Positions 3,494 through 39,641 of a DNA stretch of 64,000 nt are shown piece by piece. The notes under the pieces are model-generated. The model was not told the DNA's origin and did no database searches. It was given only the letters and a program-made list of their open reading frames with translations. The translations under genes and the position numbers were made by a program. How positions within the stretch are numbered: the stretch's first letter is position 1; the number at the start of each line of letters is the position of its first letter. The stretch covers positions 558,001-622,000 of the forward strand of contig JAGFMI010000002.1 in NCBI GenBank assembly GCA_021030905.1, written 5' to 3'. This DNA is from Pyrenula massariospora. Its lineage: Eukaryota > Ascomycota > Eurotiomycetes > Pyrenulales > Pyrenulaceae.

Positions 3494-5391
3494 ATGGCCG
3501 CTTTAGATGACGAAAAAGCTCGACCGCCCGCCATTGCAACGTTGAGGCAGCTCAGTACGGTTGAGAAAGAAGCTGGGGGCCTCCGTGTACCCCCTGCTAA
3601 AGAACCGAGCGACGATGTCGATGATGAGATAAATGAGAATCAGCGTCCGGCCACTGGCCAAAACAGTGCAAGGGAACGAATAGAAAATGTTACGACCCGG
3701 AAGAAAATAAAGAGAGCCGACAGGCGAGGACTGTGGGGCCGTTTCACGATTCTTGCTGAGATAGAGGACCCCTACACTTACGGCAGAGGATCAAAATGGT
3801 TCATCACCTTTGTTGTCGCTGTGGCAGCCGCAGCGGCTCCTATGGGCTCAGCTATTCTCTATCGTATGCTCGATGTCAATTTCCGTCTTTTAAAACACTT
3901 AGCTAATCGTTGCGGCAGCGGCTCTCGACAAGGTTGCAGACGATCTCAAATCTACTGCCACTATCACAAACATGTCCATTGCACTGTACATGCTTAGCAT
4001 GAGCATCTTCCCTTTGTGGTGGTCAGCATTTTCAGAGCACTTTGGTCGAAGGACAATATACTTGACATCCTTTTCGCTCTTCGTGTTGTTCAGCATTCTC
4101 TCCGCAGTATCGAACACCATTGGCATGTTTATTGCAATGCGGATGTTGAGTGGTGGTGCTTCCGCATCTGTTCAGGCTGTAGGTGCTGGCACCATCGCCG
4201 ACATTTGGGAGAGCAAAGAGCGCGGTCGAGCCATGGGAATCTTCTATCTGGGACCCCTGTGTGGTCCATTGTTCGCCCCCATTGTTGGCGGTGTTCTGTC
4301 ACAGGAGCTCGGATGGCGGAGCACGATGTGGTTGCTGGTGATATTCGGAGGTGAGTAAATTGTGCTCCGCCATCTATCCATGGACGATCCCGTGGGTCCT
4401 GGCTTTTACCACTGGATTTGCAAGCTAAATGTGATTACAGGCATCGCTTTGGCTCTCATCTTCTTTGCGCTTCCTGAAACCCTTAGATCGAGGAAAGAAG
4501 TCGACGTCCTCCCAACATCGCAAGGGTCATGTTCCGAAGAAGTCCTAGAGAATGGACTTGGACGTGTCTCTTCGAGGCGTTCAATCCAACTGAAGACAGT
4601 AAGAGGGGCAAAGGTTGCGAAGATGATCTTGATTGATCCGCTCAAGACGCTTCTGTACCTTCGATTCCCTCCTGTACTTCTCACAGTCTACTATGCCAGT
4701 ATTACGTTCGGCTCACTGTACGTACTTAATATCAGCGTGCAGTATACGTTTCATAGAGCTCCCTATAACTTTTCTGATCTCATCGTTGGCCTCCTGTATA
4801 TCCCAGCATCTATGGGATACTTCGGAGCCAGCATCGTCGGCGGGCGTTGGATGGACTTCATCATGCGTCGTGAGGCTGAAAAGCGACGTGAGGCCGAGGG
4901 ACCAGGGAACAGAGATCCAAACAGCAAATTGGTCTATCGGCCCGAGGACCGAATGCGAGAGAACGCGTGGCTGGGGTCAGTAATCTACCCAGGAGCTTTG
5001 ATCTGGTATGGCTGGACTGCTGAGAAGGGAGTCTTTTGGCTTGTTCCTGTAAAGCTCCTTGCCCTACTCTAAAGTCTAGACTAATCCTATCCAGATGATT
5101 GCTTCTTTTTTCTTCGGCTGTGGCTCCATGCTCATCTTTGCCATGGCTACCACTATGCTGACCGAATTCATGCCTCGAAAATCTTCGTCGGGGGTGGCAG
5201 TCAACAATTTTATGCGCAATATTTTCTCCTGTGTTGGCGGTATCGTCGCTGCTCCCATAATTGCAGCCATCGGCAACGGCTGGATTTTCACGATCCTTGG
5301 CCTTTGGTCGCTGTCGAGCTGCGTCGTCATTTGGGCGATGAGACATTACGGGCCACGGTGGAGGAAGTCAATGGATGCCAAGTTGAATTGA
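3494..5391 (+). CDS. Major facilitator superfamily multidrug/polyamine-type exporter (DHA1-like)
   Basis: Four exons: 3494-3863, 3919-4350, 4441-5048 and 5095-5391, giving about 568 aa. The first ~115 residues are hydrophilic. Transmembrane segments begin at FITFVVAVAAAAAPMGSAI. The loop 2-3 signature appears as SEHFGRRTIY, then GTIADIWESKERGRAMG, and the antiporter-type motif C is GPLFAPIVGG. A long charged loop follows helix six, and the last exon holds two further hydrophobic helices. Members of this DHA1 group sit in the plasma membrane and export drugs, polyamines or organic acids by proton antiport. All intron phases close the frame. Substrate is not predictable, and no biosynthetic cluster surrounds it here. 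Confidence 0.9.
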
Positions 5392-6629: not shown

Positions 6630-9600
6630 ATGACCACGCCAAAGTACCAATATGCTCAGCTTCCTGTATTCAAGTATCAGGTCTATGACCGGCAGAGCAC
6701 CAAGTTCTCCTATGTCCCTATTATACCTCCACGTGAAAAACCTCCGGTTGATTACGACGACGCTAATGATGCTAGAAACGGAGCTGAGACAGATACCCAA
6801 CCTCCACCTCAGGATGTAGCAGCTGTTGAATCTGCCACTGAACCAGCAGAAGGTATGATCAGGCCCATTCAGCCTAACAATACCATCAATTCCCCTCGAG
6901 ATCGGAAGTCAGAGACTAGTTGACTTGATATGGATTGGCAATAGCTGACAGAATTGTATCACATTTTAGTGATCCAAACAGCTGCGGAGCCTGAGGAAAC
7001 GCCACCAAGCGACGCTCCAGAAGAAAGTACGGTACCCTTATTACCAATTCAGATCCCCTCATAAGCTATACATACTGATACTTGAACGGCAGATGAGCCT
7101 GGAATTCCACCCCTCGAGCCTGGCGCCGATGCTGGAGAGCCTGAACTAGCTGAAAAGCTTGACTCCATCATTGTCGAAGAGGAGAATGCACCAGATTCTG
7201 TCGGTGGAGAGGCTGGTGACGAACCGCCAACCGATGCCGATGCTACGGAGGAGAATAGCTCCGCTGACCCACTTCCCCAGCCTACGGATGTCACCGATGT
7301 CGGAGAGCAGCCTGTTGAAGAACCCCCCGATCCATTGGAGGATGCAAAGGACACCGACGTCATCATATTGGCGGAGCCGCCTACCTCTGATGCCCAGCAA
7401 AGTCCTCCTGACGCCGAACCTGCGCAAATTGATGAGAAACCTGACGCTGGAGACGCCAAGAATGAAGAAATAAACGCGGATGCCGAGCCAGCAGTCACAA
7501 AAGACACGGAGAATGGAGCAGCGGCTGAAGCGACACAGCTAATTCCAAAAAAGGGCCATGCACAAACAAAGAAGGTGGTCATAGAGGATCCGAAGCCTCC
7601 CTCTGATCCAAGTAGATCCAAAAAGGGAAAATCGAAAAAATCCAAAACACCTAAAGCAACCCCCAAAAAGTCCAAGTCTAAAGGGAAAGGGAAAGGGAAA
7701 GAGGTGCCCACACCTAAGGCAGAAGAACCGACTACATCTGCCGAAGCGAATATTGAAGAGGTCAAAGTTGAAGAGCTGAGCTCGACTAAGGAAAATGCCG
7801 AGCAGCCAAACGGAGAAGCAGCAGCTCCAGATGCGAATGGAGCTGTTGATGCAAAGATTGAAGAGCCTCGAGCCAGTGAAGGGGCTGTGGATTCATTGCC
7901 AGAGACACAAGGTGATGGAGCTAAGTCCGAAGAGCCACCAGGTAACACTGCTAGCCCTGTAGAGACCCTGGCGTCAGAAGCTGAGCCTGAGCTAGTATCA
8001 GAGGAAGGCAAGGCAGACAGTGACGAAATTAGCAAAGATTCTACCCAGGCATCTAATTGTGAGCCTGCACCTGGTGATGTCAATGAAGAAGTACCCAAGG
8101 CAGTTGAAATTGTTGCAGAAACAGCATCACCAGAGCAACCAGCAGCGGTCGATGAAAGGAACCCAGCCGAAGCAGCTGCTGAACCAACGCCTTCAGAAGA
8201 ACCCGCCACCGAGGCGACGGCGGCATTGGTAGATGAACCAGCGTCAGCTGAAGAGCCAGCACCCGTCGCTGAGCCACCGCCCGCAGAAGAATCCGCACAA
8301 GGCGAAGAATCAGCACCTGTCGTGGAGCCACCGCCTCCAGAAGAATCCACACAAGTTGCTGAGCCGCCAATCTCAGAAGATCCTGCCCCGGTCGAAGTAA
8401 CATCGCCATCAGAAGGACCCGCACCTTTTGAAGAGCCGACAACGGCCGAAGAGCAGCCTCTGGCAGAACCTCCTCCTGCTGAAAGCTCTGCACCCCCGGA
8501 ACCAGCTTCAGCTGGAGATGTAGCACCCGTAAAGGATGCACCTTCGGCGGAAGGTCCAGCTTCCTCCCAAGAAACGTCGAAGCAAGAACCCTCTTCCGCC
8601 GAAGAAGTACAGGCTGCGGAAGCTATTCCTTCTAGCGACTCTGGTCCAGTTGAAGAGTCAACTGCCGAAGCAATACCTCCTATCGACGAGTCTACTGTCG
8701 AACCCCCGCCCGTAATAGAAGAGCCTTCCGCAAAAGAAGAGGCCCCCACGACAGAAGAACCACCTAAGACGGAAGAGTCCCTTGCGGAAGCAACACCTCC
8801 TGATGAAAAAGCTACTGCATCGGAAGAACCATCGGCAGCAGGTGCGCTGCCTGCCGCAGAGGCACCACCTACCACAGAGGAGCCAGCTGCTGTAGAGGAA
8901 CTACCTACCACAGAGGAACCACCTGCCACAGAGGAACCACCTGCCACAGAGGAACCACCTACCACAGAGGCGCCACCTACCACAGAGGAGCCATCTGCGA
9001 CAGAGGAGCCACCTGCTGTAGAGGAACTACCTACCACAGAGGAACCACCTACCGCAGAGGAACCACCTACCACAGAGGAGTCGCCTACGTTAGAGGAACC
9101 ATCTGCTGTAGAGGAGCCACCTGTGGGAGAAGAGCCACCTGCGGTAGAAGAACCACCTACTACAGAAGAGCCGCCTACTACAGAAGAACTACCTATTACA
9201 CAAGAGCCGCCTACTCCAGCAGAGCCGCCTACCACAGCAGAGCCGCCTACGGTAGAAGAATCCTCTCTCACAGAAGAACACCCTGTGGAAGCAGCCCCTG
9301 TTACCGAAGAATCAAGATCTGTGGAAGGGTCAAAGGCTACAGAGGACCCAACGCCGACTAATGCTTCGCCTCTTTTGGAGGAGGCGAAGAATGACCATCC
9401 TGCTGTTGAATCTCCTGCCGAGGCGACGACGAGCGAAGCAGTCATCTTAGAAGAGGCGACCACCGCAGCAGCAGCTGATTCATCCGGCTCTGCTGAGAGG
9501 CAGCGACGACATCGAAGAAAGGGATGGGAACGAGAACATCGTGGCTCGAAGTCCTCGTCAGACGGTCATCGGCCACATTTAGAGCGGCGGAAGGGTGAGA

Positions 9601-10283
9601 AGGATCCCTTCACCAATCGCTATGCTCTTGCTGTGAAAGCAGCGAAAGAAAAGCCAAGCCGCCGGCATCATCACGACGATCGAAAGAAAGTATTAGAGAG
9701 GAAACGTACACCGCGCGAGGAGGAGGAACGAAAGGAGAGACATGAAGAAAGACGTAAAAGGCGTCACGAGAAGCAATTGATGCTGCAACGGGCGGTCGAG
9801 AAAGCGCCGGCAGATGCGGAGAAAGCATCAGAGACAAGGAAATTGAACGGAGCAGGGGCCATTACGCCTCCCGACTCACCTACAAGTTCACGAAATGGAT
9901 ATGGGAAACGCCGCCGACCCTCATATGCTGAGTCAAGCAAGAGCAATGGGAGTAGCATCGGGTCGACACGGCCAGGGCTCTTAAAAAGAATGACCACGGG
10001 CGAAAGTGAGTCTGGCGGGCGGCTCTTGAGAGTGAACGGGATCAAGACTGATCCTTCAGACACTCGCCCTCGGCGTTCTGCTCGTCCACCGGCATCAATG
10101 CCAGGGTCAGAAAATGTCAAGACCGAGAGGAGCGAGCATGGAAGCAATCGTCGTCGAAATTCGGACCGCCCTCCACCATCCCGCCATACGAGCTCTAGGG
10201 ATGGGCAAAGGGACCACGCTCGGTCCAGAGGAAGTGACAGCGGTGGTCTATGGAGAACAATATCTCGCGTCATGTTCGGTTGA
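6630..10283 (+). CDS. Large intrinsically disordered Glu/Pro/Ala/Thr-repeat protein of unknown function
   Basis: Three exons: 6630-6852, 6970-7026 and 7093-10283, about 1156 aa. I do not recognise the family. The N-terminus (MTTPKYQYAQLPVFKYQVYD) is the only non-repetitive, aromatic-rich part and is probably the conserved head. A long acidic region follows, interrupted at about 7611-7710 by a Lys/Ser-rich patch (SKKGKSKKSKTPKATPKK). From about 8870 to 9250 there are degenerate hexapeptide repeats of the type EEPPTT/EEPPAT on 18-bp units. The last 260 residues, from about 9490, switch to very basic Arg/Lys/Ser-rich sequence (RRHRRKGWEREHRGSK). No signal peptide or membrane helix is visible. 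The strongly dipolar charge layout suggests a scaffold or nucleic-acid-binding role, but that is inference. Confidence 0.75.
8870..9250 (+). repeat. Coding 18-bp tandem repeat (EEPPTT-type hexapeptides)
   Basis: Units of the form gag-gaa-cca-cct-acc-aca repeat in frame with point variation (ACC/GCC, ACA/GTA). They encode EEPPTT, EEPPAT and EELPTT variants. Several neighbouring units are nearly identical at the DNA level, especially around 8900-9080. This points to recent slippage or unequal crossover, and length may vary between strains. Confidence 0.85.
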
Positions 10284-11079: not shown

Positions 11080-13070
11080 ATGACGCTCAACTCAAAAGCT
11101 ATTTACCCATCCTCAGACCCCGAATTTATCCCTTTCCCTAGCCGCAGGAGCGTGGTACACAGCACAAATGGTATCGTTGCTTGTACTCAGCCTCTTGCTG
11201 CTGAAGCAGGACATCGGGTACTGAAGCAAGGTGGTAATGCAGCGGTACGCCTCCAACCAACTCATGCAAAGCGCCAAAACGTTCAACTAACACTCGTAAG
11301 GATGCTGCCGTTGCTGTCGGTTCGCTGCCCAATATAATTGCCCATTACAAGTCTAACAATTGTATGCAGCTGCAGCCTTGAATATGACGGAGCCAGGTTC
11401 TACGGGCATAGGTGGCGACTTGTTTTGCCTCTTCTTCGACGCCAAAACGAAGAAGGTGCATGCCCTCAACGGGTCTGGACGATCAGCCCAAAATTGTACT
11501 CTTGAAAAAATCAGGAGTGACTTGGGCATCAAACCTGGAAAAAGTGGTTCAATTCCAATGCTGAGCGTACATTCAGTCACGGTTCCTGGCGCAGCCGCTG
11601 GTTGGGTCGACACGGTCGAGCAGTTTGGAAGTCACAAGCTCACTTTAGAGCAAATTCTCTCGCCTGCAATTGAACTTGGCGAGAATGGCTTCCCTGTATC
11701 AGAATTATCAGCTTCATATGTCAGTCGAGTCTTTCTCGGCCGAGACTTCATGGGCTCACATTTTCTAGTGGAAAAACAGCGAAAACGCCATTCGAAACGC
11801 CAGTCCCAACTTCCGTGAAATGCTAAAGGCAGATGACAAGGCCCCAGACGGATGTCGCGCTCCCTTGCCCGGTGAGCTTTTCAAAAATCCGACCCTTGCG
11901 CACACATTTCGCACGCTTGCTCGAGAGGGCAAGAAAGGGTTCTATACGGGGCGCATCGGACAAGCGGTGGTGAACGTTGTTCAGTCTCTCGGTGGGCACG
12001 TAACCTTGGATGATTTGGAGAATCATGCAAATCAAGGCAGCCAGGCTGTGGATCCAATATCGCTTAGATTCACCGGTCATGGAGTTGGAAACCTGCCATC
12101 AGACCAAACGTACTCTAGCGGGGCCCCTGACGTCTCTGGAGTTGAGGTGTGGGAGCATCCTCCCAACGGCCAGGGGATTGTCGCTTTGATGGCGCTTGGC
12201 CTACTTCAGGAGTTTGAAAAGTCGAAGAAGACACCTACCTTTGGCGAGGATGACCATAACAGCGTAGCCTACCTACACGCGGTGATCGAAGCTCTCCGAA
12301 TTGCCTTTGCAGATGCCAATTGGTGGGTAGCAGATCCCGACGTTGAGCGAGTCCCCAGCCAGCAGCTCATCTCTCCTGAATATTTGGCCAAGCGAGCCAA
12401 ACTTTTTGATCCTTCACGCGCGTCGGATCCTTTGACTCACGGCGAGCCTTCTCCCGCCCAGAATCATAGTGACACTGTCTACTTTAGCGTGACCGATCGA
12501 TACGGAAATGGCATGTCGTTCATCAACTCCAACTACGGCGGATACGGCACCTGCATCATACCGAAAGGCTGCGGATTTACGCTCCAAAATCGGGGCGCCA
12601 ACTTCGTCCTTCAACCGCCAGACCATCCCAATATCTTTGCGCCGGGGAAGAGACCCTACCATACCATCATCCCAGCAATGATAACCAATCCCGCGGACGG
12701 AACCCTCCATACGGTGTATGGGGTCATGGGTGGCTTCATGCAGCCCCAGGGCCACGTGCAGGTTCTCCTGAATATGCTCGTGTTTGGGCTGAATCCCCAA
12801 GCGGCTCTAGATGCGCCACGTATGTGCATTGGAGCCGGTATGCCCGACGACGGCCAGGCGGTGGATCGGAGCGTCTACCTGGAGGAGGGCGTACCCGGCG
12901 ACGTGGTTCAGGGCCTCGCTAAGCTGGGTCACACGGTGGAAGTGGTCAAGGGGATGAAGAGGAGCGTGTTCGGACGGGGGCAAATCATCCGCGCGCACTG
13001 GGAAGACGGCAGGGTGATTTATAGCGCCGGAAGTGATCCGAGGGGGGATGGAATGGCCATGCCGGCGTAG
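11080..13070 (+). CDS. Gamma-glutamyltransferase / glutathione hydrolase-like Ntn hydrolase
   Basis: Four exons: 11080-11244, 11301-11319, 11370-11719 and 11769-13070, about 611 aa. The 19-nt second exon encodes DAAVAV and is needed to build the conserved GGNAADAAVAVAAALN. Other family blocks are EPGSTGIGGDLF, VPGAAAGWVD and SGAPDVSG. The autoprocessing site is NHSDTVYFS, with Thr414 as the expected nucleophile, followed by MSFINSNYGGYGT. The family cleaves the gamma-glutamyl bond of glutathione or transfers the glutamyl group. The N-terminus has no signal peptide or membrane anchor, unlike vacuolar or secreted GGTs. It therefore resembles the bacterial-type YwrD group and is probably cytosolic. 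All phases close and the catalytic blocks are complete. Confidence 0.9.
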
Positions 13071-16990: not shown

Positions 16991-17939
16991 CGCCTATACA
17001 TACTTCTCTATTTAAATTTATAATTATAATTAAGTAACTACAGCACCTCTACTTTATATAATTAATTATTTTATTATATTTTATAACTATTTGTTTTAAC
17101 CTGTGACGAAATAAATAAATTTAAAATATTTTAAAAATATTATTTTTAAAAGTCGATGTGTGCGACGCGTTAAATAATATAATTTTTAAATTTTTATAAA
17201 AAATAAATTAAAAGTTTTAATTAACGTTATCATAAAATCAATTAATTATTATAATATAATAAAATTAAATTTTAATAATACTATATTATATATACAGAAT
17301 CCTTCTAATTTTAATTAAATAGTAAAATTTTAAAAAATGTAATTAAATAACTTTATTTAAAATATAATTTAATTAAAATTATATTAAAATAACAATCCTT
17401 TAAATAGACTCTTACTATTTTTAAAAATAAAATTAAATAAAAATAATATTTATAAAGGTAACGATTAATTATTAAAATTTAAAAATAAAAAAAAAACTCG
17501 TAAAGATCGTCGAAAGATTTATTAATTTAATATATTTAATAAAAAGATTTAATTTTATAATAATACTTATTAACTATTTATTAATTATAATATTAATAAA
17601 TTTTTTAAATTAATTTAAATACAATTTTAAAATAATACAAAATTATTATTCGGATTTTAAATTTTTATTATTAAATTATTAATAAAATAATATATATTAA
17701 AAAATATATTTATTAATTTAAATAAAATAATTTTTAAAAGAAAGAAACTATTAATAATTTAAAATTAAAAGTATTTTATTTTATTTTTTTTCTTTTTTTT
17801 CACGATGAAATAAAAAAATATAAAATTAAAATATTTAATAATTTAAAAAATAAATTATAAATTTATAATAATATATTAGTAATTTATAAAATTTAATTTT
17901 TAATATTATAATTAATTAATAAGAAGAGCCCGTCGAAAC

Positions 17940-17971
<32 letters not shown>

Positions 17972-20900
17972 AAATTTATTAATATTAATATATAATTAAT
18001 ACTTTGTATATATATTTCTAAGTAATTATAATTATTATTATAATTAAAAATTAAAATAAAAAGTTTAAAAATATACTTCAATTTTTTGAAAATAAAAATA
18101 AAGATAAAATAAACTAAAATTAGTAAAATAAAATAATTTTTATAAAATTTTATAAAAGTAGTATATTTTTTTTTAAATAAAATAAATTAAACTATATGTA
18201 TATTTTTATCGATAAATTAATATATAATACTATTAAATATTACTTTAAAATTAATTTTTTTAATTTATATTAAATTATATAAAAGGCGCTAAACAAACTA
18301 TACAGTATATTTAATATATTTAATAAAATTATTTAATACTATAAAAAATTATTTATACTAAATTTTTCTATAAAAAATAAAAAAATAATTAATAATTTTT
18401 TATTTTAATTTAATATAATTATCGCGCCGCTAAATTTTAATAATAAATTTAAAATTAATTATTTTAATTACTTTTTAGTTTCGCCATTAAAAATAAAAAT
18501 TTATAATTAAAATATTTATAAATTTTATAATTAATATATTTTATAACTTTAAAAAATAATTAAAGTTATAATAAATAATTTATAATTTATATATTAAAAA
18601 ATATATAATTTCGCTTATAATATTTAAAAATAATTTATTAATAAAAATAATAATATCAAATAATTATAGAGTCGCAACATTAATTTTAAAATAATAAAAA
18701 AAATTTAAAATATTTATAGTAAACTGCGCAAATAAAAAAAATATTATAATTATAAAAAAAAAAGTTATAATAGTCGCGACAATAATATTTTTTATAAAAA
18801 TAAAAAATATATAATTTTATATAAACTAAAATTTAAAATTATTTTTTTATAAATAATTAATATCTTCAACAAAAATAAATTAGTAAAAAAAAATTTAAAA
18901 AAATTAAAAAATAAATAGATTCTAATTTTAATTATAATTAAAATATAATTTATAAATATAATAATTTTTTAAATAAAAAAAAATATATAAAAATAAATAA
19001 TTTTATTATTTTTTTTTTACTATTAATATTAAGAACGCTTTTCATTTTTGAAATAATAAGTAATTAAATTTTAACTATTAAATTTATTTAAAAAAAGAAT
19101 TTATTATTTATACCTTTTTATTATTAAATATAAATTATTTAAATAAAATAATTGTAAATACGAACTTTATTTAAAAATATAAATTAAATTTTATTTTTTT
19201 AATTTTTAAATAGAAATTGATAGTAATCAATAAAATAATAATAAATAAAATTTATTATATAGTACAATTTAATTTTAGTTTTAATTAATATAAAAATAAA
19301 ATTTAGATTTATGTAACTCTATTAGTTAAATTTAATATTATTATTAAAATATTTTAGTTAAAATAATATAATTTTATTTTAAATTTTATAAAAAAATTCT
19401 TTACATTTTCTTCGTCTTATTATTTAAAATATTATTTAAATTATAATTAATCTATAATTATTATTGTAAAGGGAGTTTTTTAAATTAAAGTTAATATATT
19501 TTATTAATATAATAATATTATTTAAAATTTAATTTATATTTTTATAAAATTAATAAAAAAATTTTATAACTAAGTTGTTACTTTTATATTAAAAAATTTT
19601 AAAATATTAAATAATAATAATTTTATATTTAAATTATTAATAATAAATATCGCTGTACTTATTTAAAAAAATTTTAATAAATTTTATATAAAATTAAAAA
19701 TAAAACTATTAATATACAATCAGTTATAATAAATATTTTTAAAATAATATTAAAATTATATAAATTAATAGGATTTTAAAGTCGCTAATTAATTATTATT
19801 TTATTATAATATAAATTATTATATTAAATTATAATTAGAAGCGACTCTTTTAATTATTAAAATTTATAAATTATTTTAAGACTAAATTATAATTATTAAA
19901 ATATATATTAACAATATACTTAAAAAGAAATATATATAATTTAATAAATTTTTTTATATAGTTTCTATTTTAATTATTAAAAAGTTTAATAACAGTCTAT
20001 ATATATATGTCAATTCTTATATTTTAAATATATTAATAATTAAGAACTAAAATATTCTTTTATTAATTTAAAAAATATTAGTATAATTTTATAAAATTAA
20101 AATTTATTTTAAATTCAATATAATTGCTACTTTTAATAAAATATAAATAAAAAATAAAAATAAACTAAAAACGGCTTTTTAAATTTATTATAAATTATTT
20201 AAATATTTTGTTATACTTTTTAAATTATATAATATATTTAAAACTTTTCAAATTTTTATTAATAATATTTTATATTTAAAAATAAAAAAAAGCATCTCGA
20301 TATAAACAGAATTAATTAGTTTAATATAGTATTTTAAATACTAATTTAAAAAGAAGAGACTATACAAACTAGTATTTTATTAATTCTATTTATTAATTTT
20401 AAAATGGTTAGTAATAATTTAGAGTTAATATAAATTAATAAATTAATATATCGAAAATTTTAATAAATTTAAATAAAATAGTAAAAAAAGTAATAAAAAA
20501 AGGTTATATTTTATTAATAAAAATTTTTTTAAACTAGATTTAAAAGTAACAGAGAAAATAATAAACTTTATCTTTAAAAATTTTTATAAATAAAAATAGA
20601 ATTTATAAATTTTTATTTATTAATTTTAATAAAATTATTTTTTTCTAAATTAAAATTATCTTTTTAAATAGTAAAAATTTTTTTTTTTTTAAACTTGAAC
20701 GCGATTTTTTGTATTATGTTTATATAATATTTATATAATAATTATAATTTTTATATATTTTCTTTAAATATAAAATTTTTTTATAAATTTAATATAATAA
20801 ATATTATAATTAATACAAAAATTTTTTTAGTTATTTATTTTATTTTATTTTATTTTTTATTTTTTTAAATATAATGTTATATTAAAGTGACAAATTAAGT

Positions 20901-22670
20901 AGTTTTTATTTTAATTTATTTTTTTTAATATTATTTTTTTTTAATTAGATAATTTAGAAAAAAAATACAATTTTTTAATTATTAATATTAATAAATTGTA
21001 ATTGTATTTTAATTCTATTTAATTAAATTTTACTATATAAAATTATTTTTTATTTTTTAAAAAATAATTAAAAAATTATTAATATAAATATAAATAATTT
21101 TTTAAAATAGTTATTGAACTATCTGTTTATTTTAATTATACTAAATTTTATAATATCTATACTATTTAATTACAGTTTTATTATAATAAATTTTAAGAAT
21201 AATAAGAATATATTGAGTTTATAATTAAATATAATAGCTTAAAACTATTTTTATAATTTTATAATAATAAATTAAGTATATAAAAAAACTACTATTAAAT
21301 AGTAAATATTTAAAATAGATATTTATCTATTTAATATATATACTGCTGTCGATTTTTTAAATATTTAAATATTAAATATATAAATACTTTAATATTATTT
21401 TAATATTAATAAATAAAAAAATATATTTACAGTACAGCGGAATGTGATATTATTTTTTTAAAAAATTATTTAAATTATAGTGCAGTATATTTTTTATTTT
21501 ATTTTATATTTAAATTTAGTTTTACTATATCTGTTACTTTTTTTATTATTTTTTATTAATATAATATAAATTTAAATAATAATTAAAATAAATTTTAAAA
21601 CTGAGTATAGCGATAAAGTATTTATAATATAAATATTAAATATTTTAATTATACTTTTAATTTTTTTTCGTGCTTTTAATAATCTTTAATTTTAAAAATA
21701 GATATAAATAATATTAAATTATTTATAAAAATTATTAATTTTAATATTTTCCGCCGCTCGAATAGTTCTTATTATTAATAATAAATAATAATTTAAAGAT
21801 CTTATTATGATAATTATTTTAAAATTAAAAATATTATTAATAGTTAATATTTGGTAAAGTTTATATAAAATTTTTTTTTATTATTATAGTATATAATTTC
21901 TGTGTCTTTAAAACTCGATATATTAATTTTTTTTTTAATTATTTTATTAATACTAACTAAATTTATTATAAAATTTTAATTAAATTTAAATCTTTAAATG
22001 GTTATTATATAGATAAATATTTTATAAAAATTTTATTTTAATATATTTTAATATATTAATTTAAATACTGTATTTTTTATATTATTATAAATAATATAAA
22101 AAATAATAGAATTTTATTAGTATATTTTTAAAAAATATTAATTTTTAATCTGTAGTAAAAATCTTTTTATAAAATATTAAAAATTTTTAATAAAAATATG
22201 CTATATATTATATATTTTTTTTATTTAATATATATTATTTAATTTAATATAATAGTTATTATTAGTCGTTTTAAATTATTTTTTTTAAATAAAAAAATTA
22301 TTAATAATTGGAATTCGAAAAATTTTATATTATTTAAAAAAAAAAAAGAAGTTTAATTAACAACTTAAAAAATAAATAATAAAAAAAGTAATAAATATAA
22401 TTATAATTTACTAATAAATTTAAATATAAAAATTTATAATTTAAATTAATATAAGTGCTCAGTGTAAAAAAAAAATTTTTTTAAATTAAATATAAAAATA
22501 ATTACTTATTCTATTTTAAAATATTTAAATATAGGAAAATTTATTATATTAAATATATTTATAAATTTATAAATTAAAAGATAATATTGAAAAATTTTTA
22601 AACAAATTTATTATTAATCTATAAAATAATATAAAAATTTAAATATTAATAATTAAATTTTATTTATTTA

Positions 22671-22728
22671 CTAATAATTGGAAATATATTAAATATTTAC
22701 TAATAATTGGAAATATATTAAATATTTA
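22671..22728. repeat. Perfect 29-bp direct tandem duplication
   Basis: A unit containing taataattggaaatatat is present twice in a row without differences, inside otherwise strongly decayed AT-rich sequence. Confidence 0.8.
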
Positions 22729-23372
22729 ATAAAATTTCTATTTTTTTTTATTTTTTATATTAAATTTTTTTTTATAATTTTCGGCTCTATTTTGTAGAAT
22801 TATTTTTAAATCTATAATAATTTTTTAAATTATTTTAAAAAATTATGTAAAAAACTTAGTAAAAAAAAATTTTAATAAAAAGTAAAATTTTGTAAAACTT
22901 TTTTAGCTAATAAAAAAGATTTAAAATATTATTATAATATTACAAAATAGAGTTATAGTTATTATTATATTTATATAATTATATTAAATTTATTATAAAA
23001 ATTTTAAATATTTATATAAATAAACTAACTCGACAAGGATAGAGATTATAAATAAATAAATTTTTATTACTTTTTTTATTATTTTTATTCAAATTTATTA
23101 ATAATAAAGTTAGAAAGAAATTTATAAATATTTTTTTTATAGTAATATTAATAATATGTAAATTATTTAAAAAAATTAATTATTATAATTAATATATCTT
23201 TATATTTTTAAAAATATAAAAAATTATTAATTATTAAAGAAGTAATTACGAAGCGGTAAAAAATTAAATTTTTTAAATATATAAATTTTAATTTATTTTT
23301 TAATTGAATAAAATTATATTTTTATAATAAATATAAATTTACAGGTTAATAATATAAATTAATTATTTATAA

Positions 23373-23428
23373 TTTTTAATTTTAAATAAAAAAAATGCTA
23401 TTTTTAATTTTAAATAAAAAAAATGCTA
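23373..23428. repeat. Perfect 28-bp direct tandem duplication
   Basis: Two adjacent identical units, each ending in aaaaaaaatgcta, lie within the AT-rich block. They are too short to be a RIP substrate and probably arose by replication slippage. Confidence 0.8.
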
Positions 23429-24295
23429 TTTTTAATTATTAAAAAATATATAAAAATAATCTTTTTATATTTATTATAATAATAAAAAATTTTTTTGCTA
23501 TACTATCATTAAATATTAATATTAAATATTTATTTAATAGTGCGCGCAATATCTATTATTATTATTATAAATATTTAAAAAATAATATTATCTATTTATT
23601 AATGTTTTAAATATATTGTAATTAATTTAATATAAAAAAATATATCTTATTTGTAAAGAGTTAAATTTTTTAAAATAATTTAAAAATTATATTTTAAATA
23701 GAATTAAAAAAAATAATATTTTATATATTAATAATAATAATAATAAAAAAAAAGAGCAAATTTTATATATAACTTTATATAGTTAAGTTATATTTATATA
23801 TAGTAATTTTTAATAATTTATTTATTTAAATTTTTAATAACAAATTTTATAAAAAGATAAAATTATATTTTTATAAATAATAATAATACTAATTCGCAGA
23901 ATATAAAAATTTAAAAAAAAAATTTTAACTTCATTTTTATAGAAATAAATAGTTTTTAATAATTATATTATTATAAAATTTAAAAAATTTTATTATTTAT
24001 TTTATTACTTTAAAATTATTAATTTTAATTAAAAAGTTTTTTAAATTATTTAATAAAAAATTTTTCTGTTTTAATTACTTTATAATTTATATAATAATTA
24101 TAATATAAATTTATTAAGTTTAAATAGTTTAAAAATTTATTTTAATTTAATTTAAATAAACGTTCATAGATTAAATTGGATTTTTTAAAATTATTTTAAA
24201 AATTTATAAATTATTTAAGGTCAACTCTAACAATCTAAAATATATAAATTAGATTAAATTAGGTTAAATAACTTATAAGTTCTGCGCAGTCTAGC

Positions 24296-24479
24296 TGGTA
24301 TGGCGCCGCGCCCCATACAGCCTTGGCGGTCTTGGCGTCACGTGACGCGCGGCGCGCACTTTCGAGGTTTTCGCTCGCGCGTGCATATACAGAGTAATTT
24401 TTCAACTTAATATAATTATATTTAGGCCAAAAACTGCTTATATAGTTTAATATATTTATTTTAAATTTTAATTATTATA
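24296..24479. repeat. Upstream LTR of the retroelement fossil
   Basis: 184 bp starting tggtatggcgccgcgcc. Its first ~105 bp are GC-rich and well preserved, whereas its last ~80 bp are AT-shifted relative to the other LTR. It aligns with 30362-30547 with a single two-base length difference in an at-run. Confidence 0.8.
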
Positions 24480-27400
24480 TTATATTAAATTTACTATTTA
24501 CTAATTTTTATAAGTAATATAATAGTAATCGATATTAAGTTAATATTAATTTTAAATTTAACCTATTAATTATATTTAAAATTATATATTATTAAATTAA
24601 TATTTTTTATTTCTCTACCTATATTAACCTTTAAAATTAGTTATAATTTTTTAAATTTTTAAATAGTAGGCTAAACAGTTCTATTAATATAATAATATTA
24701 TTTAAATTACTTTAAAAAAAAATGTGTCGATAAAATCCCTATTTAAATTTAATTATTTTTAAAAAAAAACATTTACTTTAAAATAGTAAAAAGATTAAAA
24801 AAAAAAAAATTGCAATATTCTTTATAAAAATTAATAACTAAAAACTTTATATATTGTATAGTAACTCTTTATAATATTAAATTATAATTTTTAGTATTTA
24901 AATTTATTAAGAATATTAAATTATTTAAAAGGTAAATAGTTAATATCGATATAATAAAAAAGTTTTTTTTTAATATATTAAAAAATATTTTAAAAAAGTT
25001 GTAAAAATATCTTTGATAAAAAAAGTATTTAATTTAATTTTTAAATAACTTTATATTATATATTAAAATTATAAATATTATTTTTTATAAAATTCAATAA
25101 AATTATATTAAAAAAATAAATAAATTTAGAAAAAAGATCGCCGAATTTAAATAAATATTATAAAAAATACTTAATCAAAATTTTGAAATAACTATTTTAG
25201 TTATATTAAATATATTAATTAATAAAGTAATAAATTTCATTATTATTAATAAATAGCGAACTGCTAAAAATAAAAATAAAATAAAAATAAATAAAATAAC
25301 TGTTTTTATATTAATTATTAAAAATAATAATCCAAATAATTTTTTTAATTTATTTAATAATAATAAAAAATTAATTTAATATAATTGAGTTCTAAAATTA
25401 TATTTTATTTTATAATAAAAATTTACAGTTAAAATTTATACTTTGATAGTTAATTCAATTTTTAATAAAAATATTTATTTTATAAAAATATTAAACTTTT
25501 TTAAGCTAAACAATAAAAATTTTTTTATCTATTTAAATTAAAACTTTATTATAAATTAAAAATTGATAGTTAATACTAACTGATATTTTATTAATTTTAA
25601 AAAAATAATATATATTACTATTTAAATTATAAATTTAACAATAAATAATATATATCTCTATTTTAAAAAAAAAAAAAAAAAAAAGATTGTTATATTAGTC
25701 GAATTAATAAATTTTATCTATAATATATTTAAAAATTTAAAAATAAAATATTTTATAGATTTTAATTTTTTTTATATAAAATTTATATAATTAGTTAATA
25801 AGAACAAGATCTATAAAAATAAATAAAAAAAAAATATAGTAAAAAAACTATATAATAATTTATAAATTTAAATTACAATATATATTAAAAATAAATATAT
25901 TTTTTTTAAAAATTTCTATAATATAGCTGATATTTTTATATAATAATTAAAATATATTAAATAAAATAAAAAAAACAAAATAATAGCCCAAATAGAAAAA
26001 TTAATTAATATAATAAAAATAAAAATAAAAATAAAAATGTGCCAACCGATAAATATAATTTTTTTAGTAAAACTGCCAGCTATAGCCATTTCTATTTTAA
26101 AAATTAAAATTTTAAATATCTCGAATATTACTTGCTATAATTATAATAAAAAAAATATATAATTTATAATTATTTTAAGCCGAAAAAAATAATTTAGATA
26201 AAATAAATAAAAACTTTTAATTAAAAATAAAAAAAAAATAATTCGAAAAATAAATAACTTTAAATAAAATTACTATTTTAAAGTTAAAAAAAATAAAAAT
26301 ATAAATAGAAAACTATATTTTTTTATTAATAAAATTATTAGAGAAAACCGCGTTAATAATTAAAAATAAAATTATTTTTAAAAAAATAAACTTATGTATT
26401 AAAATACTATTAAATATAAAAACTAATAAACAGATTTTTATATATTATAAATAAAAAATAAAATTAAAAAAGCAGCTACAGATTATATTTTATAAATTAA
26501 TTTAAAAAATATTAGTATTAAAATATAATAATTAAATTATAAATTAACTCTTTTATATTTTTTAAATTAATATAATATTAGATTTAAAGTGTATCTCTAC
26601 TTAATTTATTTTTTATAATATAAAAAAGTATAACGTACTATTAAAATATATTTAATTTATTAAAAATTATATCTTTTTTAACTGTAAAAAATATTAAATA
26701 ATATAAAAAAATAATTCTATATATAATGCTAAACAGTATATAGTAATACTCTATTAAAAATAAAATATATTTTATTTAATAAAGATAATTTATCAAGAAG
26801 ATACTAATTAAAAAAATTAACTATTAAAATAAATAGATAGACTAATTAGTTTAATTAAAATATTATATTAATTCGAATCTAAAATTAAAGCTTTTAATTA
26901 TTTATTAAAAAATAAAATATAAATAAAAAATATTTAGAAGAGTTTACTAAAAATAGAGAAAAAATTAATTTAAAATTTAAAAAATCTAAAATTTAATAGA
27001 TTAAAGAAGTTATTGAAGAAATATCGAAGTAAAAACCTATTATAAATAAATATCTATATAATTAATAGATCGATCTATCTATTTAATATAAAAATAAATA
27101 TAATAATTGGAGCTACAAATATTTATAAAATTAATAAATTTATTAAAAATCGCCGCGCGGAGAACGGTTTAAAAATTAATAATAATAAATTATAATATAT
27201 AATAAAAAATAAGCTTTTTGCGTTTATTAAAAATTATTAAAATATATTTTTTAAAATTGCCTTAAATAAATTATCTTTATTAAAAAAAAGAATAAATTAT
27301 TAAATCAAATTTATTAAAAATAACAAGCTAGCCTTTAACTCTTTATATAATATATTATTAAAATATTTAAAGCTTATAAAAGCATATCTCTAAAAAAATA

Positions 27401-30361
27401 TAAAAAAAAAAATTTATTATATTTAGTAACAGTCTCTTTATTTTATTTATACTATTTATAAAAAATTTTAAAAAAAGATAAAAATTCTATATAAATTACC
27501 GATACTTTAATATTTTTATTAAAAAAATTAATATTTATTACTATTTATCAGCAAAATATTAATTTAATTACAATAAATATAAATTTTCATAAAGCTAAAT
27601 ATATAATAAGTTTTTTATTAAATTTAAATAATTTTCGAAGCAAAAAATTTTACGATATTTTATATATAATTTAATTTATATAAATATCGAGTTTTATTTT
27701 TTAGTTTATATAATAATTCTGCTTTTTTTTAACAATTTATAAATAAAATATTATTTAATTATTTAAATAATTTCTATACAATTTATATAAATAATATTTT
27801 AATTTTATTAAAGATCTTTTTAAATATAAAATATATATAAAAAAGGTATTTTAATAGTTAAAAAAATAAAATTATAAATAGATATTTAAAAAAAATAAAT
27901 TTTATATATAGAAAATTAAATTTTTAAACTTTATTATAAATACCGAAAAACTATAAATAGATTTAAAAAAATATTTATTATTTAAAACTGGTTAAAACCT
28001 TATTCGATAAAAACTATATAATTTTTTTTAAATTTTATTAATTTTTATTATATATTTTTATTCGAGGTAAAATATATTATATATTTTTTATAAAAATTTA
28101 TAATTAAAAAATATTAATATTGTTTTAAAGATAAAAAATAATAAATTTTTAATTATATTAAAAAATTTATAATATTCAACTAAATATTTACGTATTTTTT
28201 TTATTATTAATAAATATATATAAAAATCGATATCAGTAATAATATAGTAATAAAAATTTTATATTAATTATAAAATAATAAGAATTGGAAGCCGATAGTT
28301 TTTTTTTTTAAAATATTATAATTTATAAAAATATATTATAAAATCTACGACAAAAAAATATTTATTATAATTTTAAATTTAAAAAAATAACACTTACTAT
28401 TAATTAGTTTATAAAAAATTTTTTTATTCTAATAGATTATCGTGTATTAAAATTTTTTATAATTAAATATTTATTTAACTTTCGATAAATATATTAATAA
28501 AAATTTATAAAAAATTACCAATTCTTTATTTTCTATTGATTTAAAATTAAAAATATTATTATTAATATCTTTTTATATAAAGCGGAAAAATTAAAAATTT
28601 AAAAAATTAAAAATATTACTGTATAGATTAATATTTTAATTTAATTAATAATAATTATAAATTTAAAATCTGCTAGTAGAAAATTCTTATTTAAATTAAT
28701 TAATTAAATTTTTAAAATTAATTGTAAAAATTTTGCTGTACAGTTATACTACCAATTAATTAAAAAAAAAAAATTTTATAAAGAGATTTTTATTAAAATA
28801 TAATAAATTATAAATACTAAGCGCGACAAATTTTTAAATTTAATTAATTTAATATATATATATACGAGCCCTACTACGGTATATTTAAAATAAAAAAAAA
28901 TATAAAAATTAATTATAAAATAATATTATTAATATAGTTTAATAATAAATATAAAGCAGTTTATTTAAAACTGTTTATTTTATTAAAAAAAATATTTAGA
29001 AATAAAAATTTAAAATTTTTATACTTTTTATCGATTTTAAAGTACTATTAGTAATATAGTTTAATAAATTTTAAAAACTTTTTTAAAAATAAATAAGATT
29101 TTAACAATATATTAATAATAATAAATTATTTAAATAAAAAAATTTTTATTTTATTCTACCTAAAAACAGTTACTGCAAATAAAATTATTTAATTATATTA
29201 TATATATATTTAGCGTGTATACAGTATTTTTAAAATTATTATTTTAAATTAAAAATTTCAATTTATTTCATTCTTTATAAATAAATTATATTTATTTATA
29301 AAAATTAAATAAAAATTTAGTACAGCCAACTATCTATAAATTAATAATAATTTTAAAATTTTAATATAATATATCGATTAATATTTACGGCCTTTTATAA
29401 ATTATTTTTAAAATAATTAGTTAAAATTTCTATTAGCTATTAATTTCATTTAAATAATTTTAAAATATAATTTAATAAAATATTTATTATTTAAATTAAA
29501 ATTTAATTATCCCGTAAAACAATATTTCGATTAAAAAAAATAAATAAAAAAATTATTTACTATTAAAAAACAGTTTATTTATTTTAAAGTTTAATAATTT
29601 ATTAAATAAATCTATAATATTATTAAATAAATTTAAAAAAATTCAAATATTACTTAAAAATATTAAGTTAAATAAATTAATAAGTATTAGCAAAAATTTA
29701 ATTTTAAAATTAAAAATTTAATTTATATTAAACAAAAAAATTAAAATTTGAAACAACTAAATAATAAATTTAACTAGTAAAATTATAAATTTTATTTTAT
29801 TATTAAAATAAAAAATTACTTTTATAAAGTATAATTATTAAAATATATAAAAATATATTTAATATTTTATATAAATAAATTAAAAAAAGCTGCTAATAAT
29901 TTTTTTTTAAATAAATTTAAAAATTAAAAATATCTATAAAGATTAATAGAAAATTAAAATAAATAATTAAAAAATTTTTAAATAGTTATATACTAAAAAA
30001 GATACTGCAATATTATATTTAATAAATAAAATTTAATTTAAATAAAAATTATTACTCAACAAAGAACTTTATAAATTTATTTTATTTAATTAAAATTTTT
30101 TATAAATACTATCTAAAAACTATCGAATTATTTAAAAAATTAAAAAAATAACTAAAAATTTATATATATATAAAAAAAATAATTATTATTATAAAAAATA
30201 ATATAGTAGTTAAAATTAAAATAAAATTAAAAAAATATAAAAAATAAATTAAATTATTATTTTTTTTATATATTTTAATAAAAAATATTTTTTAAAAATA
30301 TTTTTTTTTATTTACAGTATCAAACTTTAATTACATTATTTTAAATTTATTTTAAAAAAAA

Positions 30362-30547
30362 TAATATAGTGCCGCGCTCTATATAGTTTTAATAATTTTA
30401 ATATTATATAATATGCGGCGCGCACCCTTAAAGTTTTCGTTTATATATATATATATATAAAGTAATTTTTTAACTTAGTATAGATACACCCAGGCCAGAA
30501 ACTGCTTGTATAGCCTAATACATTCATTCTAGACCTTGATCGTTACA
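30362..30547. repeat. Downstream LTR of the retroelement fossil
   Basis: 186 bp ending in gatcgttaca. Here the first part is AT-shifted and the last ~80 bp (for example aggccagaaactgcttgta) keep their C and G. This is the mirror image of the upstream LTR. Confidence 0.8.
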
Positions 30548-30880
30548 GCTGGTATTTTAACTTAATTAGCTGAATGTATTCATTGGCTTTTTTTAACGTG
30601 TGTACTACTAGGAATAAGATAAGCAAAATTTACAAGAACAGCATAACAGTAAAGTGCTCAAAGAAATCAGCACATTTCACAAAGTCTGTGAATTTAGTAG
30701 GACCGGCAAGTTTAGCAAGATCAGCAAAACCAGTGAAGAGATGACGTGGATTAAAATCAAGCTAGTAGCTATAGAAGAGAAATGGAGTGCTTGCCTACAA
30801 ACGCATTATAAAATAGGTTCGATAGAAGACCTTTGGCACAAGAATGATGATATATAAAATTAAAAAAATTTGCAAGTTTT
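30548..30880. other. Right flank of the AT-rich block, no gene called
   Basis: Base composition returns toward normal. It holds degenerate 9-bp units at about 30708-30735 that resemble the left-flank repeat. An open frame at 30654-30857 partly consists of that repeat and has no recognisable domain. Confidence 0.45.
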
Positions 30881-31001
30881 GGACCCATGGCGTAACGGTA
30901 ACGGTATGTCGTAAAAAGAATTTTCAGCCACTGCGATTTACTAAGTAAATAGCGTTCGACTTTAGATCGAAAGATTGTCCGTTCAAATCGGGCTGGGTTC
31001 A
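30881..31001 (+). tRNA. tRNA-like gene with UUA in the anticodon position and a ~48-nt insertion after the D arm (possible pseudogene)
   Basis: Acceptor strands ggaccca (30881-30887) and tgggttc (30994-31000) pair over 7 bp with one G-U, followed by a discriminator A. The A box is tggcgtaacgg, as in fungal tRNA-Arg genes. The T arm (30977-30993) has five pairs and loop ttcaaat, which holds the B box. The variable region is 5 nt. The anticodon arm (30955-30971) has a perfect 5-bp stem and loop ctttaga, putting TTA at 30962-30964, a triplet that would read UAA. Between the D arm and the anticodon stem lie about 48 extra bases (30907-30954) with a perfect hairpin at 30936-30950. Standard fungal tRNA introns sit one base after the anticodon, so this one is misplaced. 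Either it is a broken or rearranged tRNA-Arg-like gene or a tRNA-derived element. Function is unproven. Confidence 0.5.
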
Positions 31002-31011
31002 TCAATATAGG

Positions 31012-31026
31012 TTTTTGTTTTTTTTT
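31012..31026 (+). terminator. Pol III-type T-run terminator after the tRNA-like gene
   Basis: ttttt followed by g and a run of nine T starts about 11 bases after the last base of the tRNA-like cloverleaf. That is the normal position for a Pol III terminator. Confidence 0.55.
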
Positions 31027-37808: not shown

Positions 37809-38427
<619 letters not shown>

Positions 38428-39078
38428 TTTGATAAGTTTTGAGGTGAGGAACTGAGGGTGGAAAAGGTAGTTGGTTTGGTACTAAAATGGGATGAACGAG
38501 GCTCTGACGATGGATGGAGTCAACAATGGATGAAGGTAGCAGAAAGGCCAGGGCAGCGGCGTTGGTGGGAGGAGAGGATCTTATAGACCGTGTACGGAGT
38601 GACGTTCGGCCAGAGAGCGCACCTTTGGATCAGCCAGCAAGCTAGCCCGCTTGCGCCAATCAGCAGCTCGGATCATGCGCGACTCGTTGTTTTGATAGGC
38701 GATTGCGTGGTAACGGCTAGCCGGATCAGATCAAGCGTGGTGGTAATCTATCTTTCAACACAGAACATGCTACCTTTCCTGAATCCGCTTAGCTACCCCT
38801 CATCCCATTTTGCGGCGATTCCCACACTAATCAACAAAAGTTGAAAGAAGATCATACGTCTGGCTTACCGTATGGTAACTTTGCCGCAAACCGATCAGTT
38901 TGCACTTTCCGGGCCAGCTATAAGAACGCCCGCCATCCATCCGTCGCGACACCTCTGCCTCTTGCTTTCCTTCATCCATCCATCGACTCACATCGGCACA
39001 GCTCTCATCCTTGCTTTAGGCTTTCAAAATCTTCATTCCAAAACATCTTTCCCATCCAACCTCACCCTCTAATCAAAA
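38428..39078. promoter_or_regulatory. Shared H2A/H2B bidirectional promoter
   Basis: 651 bp separate the two histone start codons. A CCAAT box in cgccaatcag lies at 38656-38660. The stretch before the H2B ATG is pyrimidine-rich (39020-39070), a common fungal core-promoter feature. Divergent H2A-H2B pairs normally share cell-cycle control from this segment. Confidence 0.75.
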
Positions 39079-39641
39079 ATGCCTCCCAAAGCCGCGGAAA
39101 AGAAACCAAGCACTGGTGGCAAGGCCCCAGTCGGTGGAAAGGCACCAGCCGAGAAGAAAGAGGCCGGCAAGAAGACTGCCGCGCCCTCGGGAGAGAAGAA
39201 GAAGCGCAACAAGACCAGGAAGGAGACTTACTCTAGCTACATCTACAAAGGTATGTTGTTCATTGAACGCGTTTTGGCCGACGGGCCAATGTCGCGATCC
39301 AATATTTGGAAACATTGCTGACGCGTCTTTTTGCATTTAGTTCTCAAACAAGTGCACCCCGATACTGGTATCTCGAACCGTGCTATGTCAATCCTGAACT
39401 CCTTTGTTAATGGTAGGATATCCACGTTAACGCGTTTAACATCGTCACTAACACGGCTCCAGACATCTTCGAGCGTGTGGCAACTGAAGCATCCAAACTC
39501 GCCGCTTACAACAAGAAATCTACCATCTCCTCCCGAGAGATTCAGACCTCCGTCCGGCTCATCCTGCCTGGCGAACTTGCTAAGCACGCCGTCTCCGAAG
39601 GTACAAAGGCCGTCACCAAGTACAGCAGCTCGAGCAAATAG
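39079..39641 (+). CDS. HTB1: Histone H2B
   Basis: Three exons: 39079-39250, 39341-39412 and 39463-39641, giving 140 aa. The Lys/Ala-rich tail ([20 protein letters not shown]) precedes the histone fold: [56 protein letters not shown] and [17 protein letters not shown]. It ends [12 protein letters not shown], which includes the Lys that is ubiquitinated by Rad6-Bre1 in fungi. Both introns are in phase 1 and split Val and Asp codons. It pairs with H2A in the nucleosome and is divergently transcribed from it. Confidence 0.97.

Follow-up and report, generated by a model that had tools for sequence, protein, structure and literature searches.

A nuclear tRNA-Trp gene pair in Pyrenula massariospora with a putative mRNA-type intron in the D stem and a UUA anticodon in one copy

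RESULTS

Structure of the tRNA-like gene

The DNA analyzed here (the window) is a 64,000-nucleotide stretch of the Pyrenula massariospora genome, and the feature under study is a tRNA-like gene of 121 nt on its plus strand (30881-31001), the interval proposed in the original prediction. The gene and its signals comprise the following elements:

30851..30858, plus strand: upstream box TATATAAA (-30 to -23), a TATA box
30881..30903, plus strand: tRNA exon 1, with the acceptor 5' strand and the D arm through position 24
30888..30898, plus strand: A box TGGCGTAACGG
30904..30952, plus strand: 49-nt intron, GTATGT...TAG, between positions 24 and 25
30939..30944, plus strand: TACTAA, a branch-site-like motif (putative role, judged from sequence)
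30953..31001, plus strand: tRNA exon 2, with position 25, the anticodon arm, the variable loop, the T arm, the acceptor 3' strand and A73
30962..30964, plus strand: anticodon TTA (UUA), complementary to UAA; CCA in the paralogue on contig C5
30981..30989, plus strand: B box GTTCAAATC
31012..31026, plus strand: T5-G-T9 (T5 at 31012-31016, T9 at 31018-31026), a Pol III terminator-like run

Excision of the 49 nt (30904-30952, GTATGT...TAG) yields a 72-nt product with a standard cloverleaf and the anticodon UUA, and the same removal gives stems of 7, 4, 5 and 5 pairs followed by A73 in both this gene and its paralogue, the restored D stem being GCGT/ACGC (4 bp). The paired stems and the unusual anticodon that had been read from the sequence are indeed present: with G-U pairs counted, the acceptor, T and anticodon stems of the window copy are complete (7/7, 5/5 and 5/5), and the anticodon loop CTTTAGA (30960-30966) places UUA at positions 34-36. 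It had also been claimed that about 48 extra bases separate the D arm from the anticodon arm. The insertion is real, its length is 49 nt and its location is inside the D stem; since one D-stem base lies beyond it, it is not just a spacer between a complete D arm and the anticodon arm. Placing the intron one base leftward gives an identical product. When excisions upstream of the anticodon arm were scanned, three restored a 4-bp D stem, two of which give the same 72-nt product (one of them with GT-AG ends), while the third leaves a 10-nt D loop. The presumptive branch A is 30944, 8 nt ahead of the 3' splice site, and the perfect 6-bp hairpin noticed earlier within the insertion lies at 30936-30950 (ATTTAC-TAA-GTAAAT), with 5 of the 6 pairs kept in the paralogue. 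The anatomy that the original prediction regarded as a long shot, an ectopic intron combined with a UAA-reading anticodon, is the correct one.

Given the spliced forms, ARAGORN reports tRNA-Stop(tta) for the window copy and tRNA-Trp(cca) for the C5 copy; run without introns, it misses the unspliced window gene, as does Rfam at its gathering threshold. The Infernal-type profile check advocated with the original prediction detects the gene with RF00005 through its 3' half only, below the cut-off (26.2 bits against 29). Intron-allowing ARAGORN calls on the unspliced genes disagree with one another (Tyr, Phe, Pyl, Met) and were taken as artefacts, and an anticodon-loop intron was rejected. Cloverleaf energies are mildly better than those of shuffled sequences (z -1.8 and -1.4, with 11 and 19 of 200 shuffles folding just as well). 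In the minimum-energy fold of the window pre-tRNA, the 5' splice site pairs with the D arm, a predicted pairing that could hide the splice site.

The A and B boxes and the downstream T run were likewise foreseen and are found as TGGCGTAACGG, GTTCAAATC and the runs at 31012-31016 and 31018-31026, both box assignments following what we take to be the respective consensus. TATA boxes lie at -30 in the window copy and at -37 in the C5 copy, and in both the T run begins at the 11th base past the gene (T5 then T9 in the window, T7 on C5); neither copy contains a T run longer than 4 inside the gene. Among the 63 of 1116 RF00005 candidates that were scored, TATA[AT] is present at -45 to -18 in 16 of 23 other nuclear tRNA genes, and T5 or longer occurs within 45 nt in 14 of the 23.

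A paralogue with a CCA anticodon

A BLAST search of the genome (37,828,131 bases in 33 contigs) returned a single relative of the window gene, at C5:816311-816431 on the minus strand, which has a 49-nt intron at the same position and the anticodon CCA. The two copies are identical at 108 of 121 positions (89%) without indels, and the similarity spans exactly the 121 nt of the gene, no flank similarity being detected at E 0.01 within 500 nt on each side. That a second locus shares exactly these 121 nt argues that the window feature is more than a chance arrangement. Searched with the 72-nt spliced sequence at E up to 10, the genome gives no match beyond these two loci, both split at the same junction. 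Alignment of the spliced C5 form with tRNA-Trp of human and yeast (in the sequences that we take to be theirs) requires no gaps. These results dispose of the two explanations originally preferred, a decayed tRNA-Arg copy and the head of a tRNA-derived SINE: the paralogue is a tRNA-Trp(CCA), the search for further copies of the 121 bp gave only the one on C5, and with two copies found in the genome and homology that stops at the tRNA ends the element is not a SINE. The window gene itself is best described as a tRNA-Trp paralogue rather than a tRNA-Trp, because its anticodon is UUA and not CCA. Adjoining the C5 tRNA-Trp is a HET-domain fragment (PF06985; L002 1991-2863), followed by an in-frame stop and more open sequence.

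The copies differ at 3 of 72 exon positions, namely one C/G difference in the D loop and TT for CC at positions 34 and 35, and at 10 of 49 intron positions (Fisher p = 0.0065), in a comparison that rests on two sequences from one genome. Blocks identical in both introns are GTATGT, AAGAATTTTCAGC, ATTTACTAA and TAAATAG. Because the exons have diverged less than the intron, the comparison suggests that the window copy has been constrained for much of its history. There are ten transitions between the copies, seven with C/G in the window where C5 has T/A and three in the opposite direction, two of which are in the anticodon. RIP of the whole copy was rejected on this direction, with C/G in the window copy at 7 of the 10.

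Features of the intron

Both introns have GT-AG ends with a consensus-like 5' site (GTATGT...TAG) and a branch-like motif 8 nt from the end, TACTAAG in the window and TACTAAA on C5, the final base of which is not the C of CTRAC. A pattern requiring CTRAC yielded 21 putative mRNA introns in about 160 kb, which are pattern matches only; they measure 46-85 nt with 8 to 27 nt from branch to end, and the tRNA intron fits them in both respects. A stricter finder that joins coding frames gave 3 candidates. In 160 kb and against 5 shuffles, GTATGT is not clearly enriched together with CTAAG (0 versus 0.6 expected) or CTAAA (2 versus 1.2), and it was never found with CTAAC or CTGAC in the same 160 kb. 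In 400,000 permutations of the window intron, GT-AG ends arose in 0.37%, consensus ends in 0.007% and consensus ends with the branch motif in 0.0025%. The bulge-helix-bulge (BHB) geometry known from ectopic introns of Cyanidioschyzon merolae and of archaea (3-nt bulge, 4-bp helix, 3-nt bulge) is absent from both copies at both placements, the central helix having 2 of 4 pairs, and a BHB-type ectopic tRNA intron was rejected on these grounds.

The search for other D-arm introns beginning with GT used a TGGC A box followed by GTATGT, which occurs at 13 places against 6 in a reversed control. Two of the 13 are the window and C5 loci, and no T arm was found downstream of the other 11 by a test that recovers 8 of 8 known control tRNAs (a weaker first structure scan recovered 4 of 8). 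As this search covered TGGC with GTATGT only and 63 of 1116 RF00005 candidates were scored, other tRNAs may still have such introns. Beyond this genome, the junction of exon 1 with the 5' splice site has one match, on a Treponema MAG contig, which we read as non-tRNA sequence, and none in viral contigs.

A U6-like gene with GT-AG segments

A second U6-like gene lies at C27:330471 (L144 ~1485-1740; C27 ~330455-330710) and matches positions 1-59 of RF00026 with 31.5 bits, below the cut-off of 44, the intact U6 being at C11:686998-687096. The C27 copy aligns over its full length to the C11 gene only after removal of three GT-AG segments of 49, 49 and 51 nt, which carry the branch-like motifs CTAAC, CTAAC and CTGAT. 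The excisions leave a 5-nt exon (ATTAG), mismatches to U6 persist at several bases of the spliced copy, and the proposed 5' sites (GTCAGC, GTATTA and GTTCGT) are poor matches to the consensus. Judged from its sequence, this copy suggests that another Pol III-type gene in the genome carries mRNA-type introns of matching size. Such introns in U6 snRNA genes were reportedly described by Tani and Ohshima in 1989 and 1991, and intron-containing U6 in fission yeast is treated as established in the accessible text of more recent work (PMC8917221, PMC10484740).

The complement of nuclear tRNA genes

At least 23 other nuclear tRNAs were identified with RF00005 (63 of 1116 candidates scored), at one or two per anticodon. 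In 17 of these 23, ARAGORN places an intron of 7 to 65 nt in the anticodon loop; that of L066 is put at 32/33 by ARAGORN and at 37/38 by our own structure scan. Two tRNA-Arg(CCG) genes (L068 and L069, at C22:989366 and C8:568013) have downstream flanks that are alike by eye, and are apparently a recent duplication that includes the flank. Contig C26 (15175 bases) bears organelle-type tRNAs in mirrored pairs (for example 4761-4832 minus and 12245-12316 plus) and looks like a large inverted repeat, either real or an assembly fold-back.

For tRNA-Trp in particular, the genome contains 37 places where a YTCCARA loop precedes a GWTCRANNC box by 13-16 nt. Each was inspected, and only C5 has both stems with at least 4 pairs. 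Three patterns allowing an anticodon-loop intron of up to ~60 nt matched 39 places (27 in the control), 21 (55) and 28 (54). All other loci of the first two (38 and 20) were examined; in the third, 12 of 18 complete strings had no T at position 39, and the other 6 plus 10 further places were examined. When the loci of the intron-allowing patterns were rescanned, with intron length allowed to run from 0 to 89 nt and variable-loop length from 4 to 6, C5 and one weak place, L085 (stems 4/5 and 4/5), were returned; L085 was discarded for want of an acceptor stem. The genome searches, which covered the assembled sequence for the loops and B boxes of these patterns and for anticodon-loop introns of up to ~60 nt, found no other tRNA-Trp(CCA) within those limits, and C5 is therefore probably the sole cytosolic tRNA-Trp gene. 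If so, its intron must be removed for tryptophan to be decoded. Among 20 places with a CTYYARA loop, with no anticodon-loop intron allowed, both stems are found only at the window and C5, and no UUA- or CUA-loop tRNA of this kind appeared besides the window gene.

Usage of stop codons

The UUA anticodon of the window gene is complementary to UAA, as in an ochre suppressor tRNA. Among open frames of 300 codons or more, 7 of 30 terminate in TAA, 5 in TAG and 18 in TGA; among those of 200 codons or more, the figures are 14, 11 and 39 of 64. In the background, TAA makes up 4652 of 18159 stop triplets. The frames are a rough proxy, since exon ends and antisense frames are counted among them. Histone genes, considered as another yardstick, offered few clear ends. 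Two divergent histone-family matches with H2A- and H2B-type ends lie ~1.3 kb apart in the window (37994-39560). A change of the genetic code was rejected, given that UAA ends long frames at close to the background rate.

DISCUSSION

We consider it rather probable, from the sequence comparisons above, that the window gene is a duplicate of the nuclear tRNA-Trp gene, that both copies carry an mRNA-type intron in the D stem that the spliceosome would remove, and that the window copy is a weak or decaying suppressor. Pol III would transcribe the gene via its internal boxes, the spliceosome would excise the GT-AG intron, as with the intron-containing U6 of fission yeast, and the joined exons would adopt a normal tRNA fold. 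The C5 copy (CCA) would provide the tryptophan tRNA, and the anticodon of the window copy would have changed from CCA to UUA, so that any tRNA made from that copy would recognize UAA stop codons by base pairing.

Regarding the intron, a different route would be excision by the tRNA splicing endonuclease and joining by tRNA ligase, as put forward for C. merolae; the 49 nt would then be an ectopic tRNA intron and its GT-AG ends a coincidence. The host is, after all, a tRNA gene in a genome where 17 of the 23 further nuclear tRNAs found among 63 scored candidates out of 1116 have anticodon-loop introns, and ectopic introns, also in the D arm, are described in the accessible text of studies on C. 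merolae, with BHB motifs, and on nucleomorphs (PMC3978253, PMC4090602), the removal mechanism in nucleomorphs being termed unknown there (PMC4090602). We nonetheless regard this route as unlikely, for no BHB is formed by either copy at either placement, chance seldom produces GT-AG ends with consensus flanks, and the eukaryotic enzyme is considered, in the part of the source available, to measure to the canonical site (PMC4090602).

The change of the anticodon from CCA to UUA may be one recent tandem event, and the accessible portion of PMC9976931 gives C34 and C35 as major Trp identity elements in yeast and reports that a plant tRNA-Trp(CUA) is mischarged by LysRS. Since those two bases are lost, the window tRNA is probably a poor acceptor of Trp, being charged either poorly with Trp or with another amino acid. 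There is about an even chance that the copy is simply a dead tRNA-Trp pseudogene without function, in which TTA was an early lesion caused by a tandem CC-to-TT change or by leaked RIP. The adjacent C-to-T pair would fit a single event, the gene adjoins a block of ~8% GC, charging should be impaired by the loss of C34 and C35, and UAA is an ordinary stop, closing 7 of the 30 frames that reach 300 codons. Against this, the stems, both boxes, the TATA box, the terminator and the splice signals are all intact, the exons are less diverged than the intron, and there is no general RIP footprint. The same intact expression and splicing signals, together with the fact that the anticodon takes two of the three exon changes, might instead indicate a natural ochre suppressor selected for regulated UAA readthrough, and TTA suppressor tRNAs have been predicted in 21.65% of sampled eukaryotes according to the accessible part of PMC9858662. 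Selection of this kind seems improbable, however, as TAA closes open frames at roughly the background frequency and the Trp identity elements are gone; with UAA a normal stop, strong suppression is unlikely, and for the UUA copy a weak or dying suppressor is a likelier reading than a change of code. An assembly or consensus error at the anticodon, with both copies really CCA, could be raised because there is a single assembly, but it is very hard to credit: the two adjacent substitutions stand beside 11 further differences from C5 in 121 nt, which mark the window copy as a distinct locus. In view of its sequence, we take the window gene to be a recent, weakly active or decaying copy of ochre-suppressor type, a dead or nearly dead copy being likelier than a suppressor in use.

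A bolder proposition, which we advance as doubtful but possible, is that the sole cytosolic tRNA-Trp is split by a spliceosomal intron, so that UGG decoding depends on splicing, and that its duplicate is becoming a spliceosome-dependent ochre suppressor. The introns of tRNAs and mRNAs are treated as being removed by separate machines, and an essential tRNA gene, apparently present once, with an mRNA-type intron would break that division; the duplicate, if a suppressor, would couple stop-codon readthrough to splicing. An mRNA-type intron would also account for the failure of standard tRNA finders to detect such a gene, and the gene pair would make it testable whether spliceosomal introns occur in Pol III transcripts other than U6. 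The UUA paralogue furthermore offers a natural experiment on how a tRNA that reads a stop codon arises. Among the open-access papers found by literature searches, judged by title and opening lines of the abstract, none was recognized as describing a spliceosomal-type intron in a nuclear tRNA gene, and novelty is accordingly provisional. For tRNAscan-SE 2.0, the accessible text describes detection of noncanonical introns for archaea (PMC8450103).

Several known systems bear comparison with the gene pair. As in U6 genes with mRNA-type introns, a GT-AG intron interrupts a short Pol III gene, but the host here is a tRNA. From canonical tRNA introns at 37/38 the present ones differ in position (24/25) and in their GT-AG ends, the nuclear tRNA host being shared. 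The ectopic introns of C. merolae and nucleomorphs, as presented in the accessible parts of PMC3978253 and PMC4090602, resemble them in lying away from 37/38, the D arm included, and in being missed by standard finders; the C. merolae junctions have BHB-type motifs (PMC3978253), whereas those of the window and C5 copies do not, and the host in our case is a fungus whose other detected tRNA introns sit in the anticodon loop. The UUA anticodon is shared with the TTA suppressor tRNAs predicted in PMC9858662 and PMC3434094, the latter, in its accessible text, predicting one in a fungal mitochondrial genome; unlike these, the window gene, itself a putative suppressor, is nuclear, derived from tRNA-Trp and provided with a D-stem intron.

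Genomic surroundings

The tRNA gene is located at the right-hand edge of a 13-kb block (~17000-30400 in the window) with ~7-16% GC beside sequence of ~50% GC, which is either centromere-like or heavily mutated. Elsewhere in the window, Pom152 is present, which together with the HET-domain remnant next to the C5 copy fits a fungus, probably a filamentous ascomycete. An open frame of 1065 aa with PPTTEE-type repeats extends from 7086 to 10283, with an AT skew of about +0.35 over 7-10 kb.
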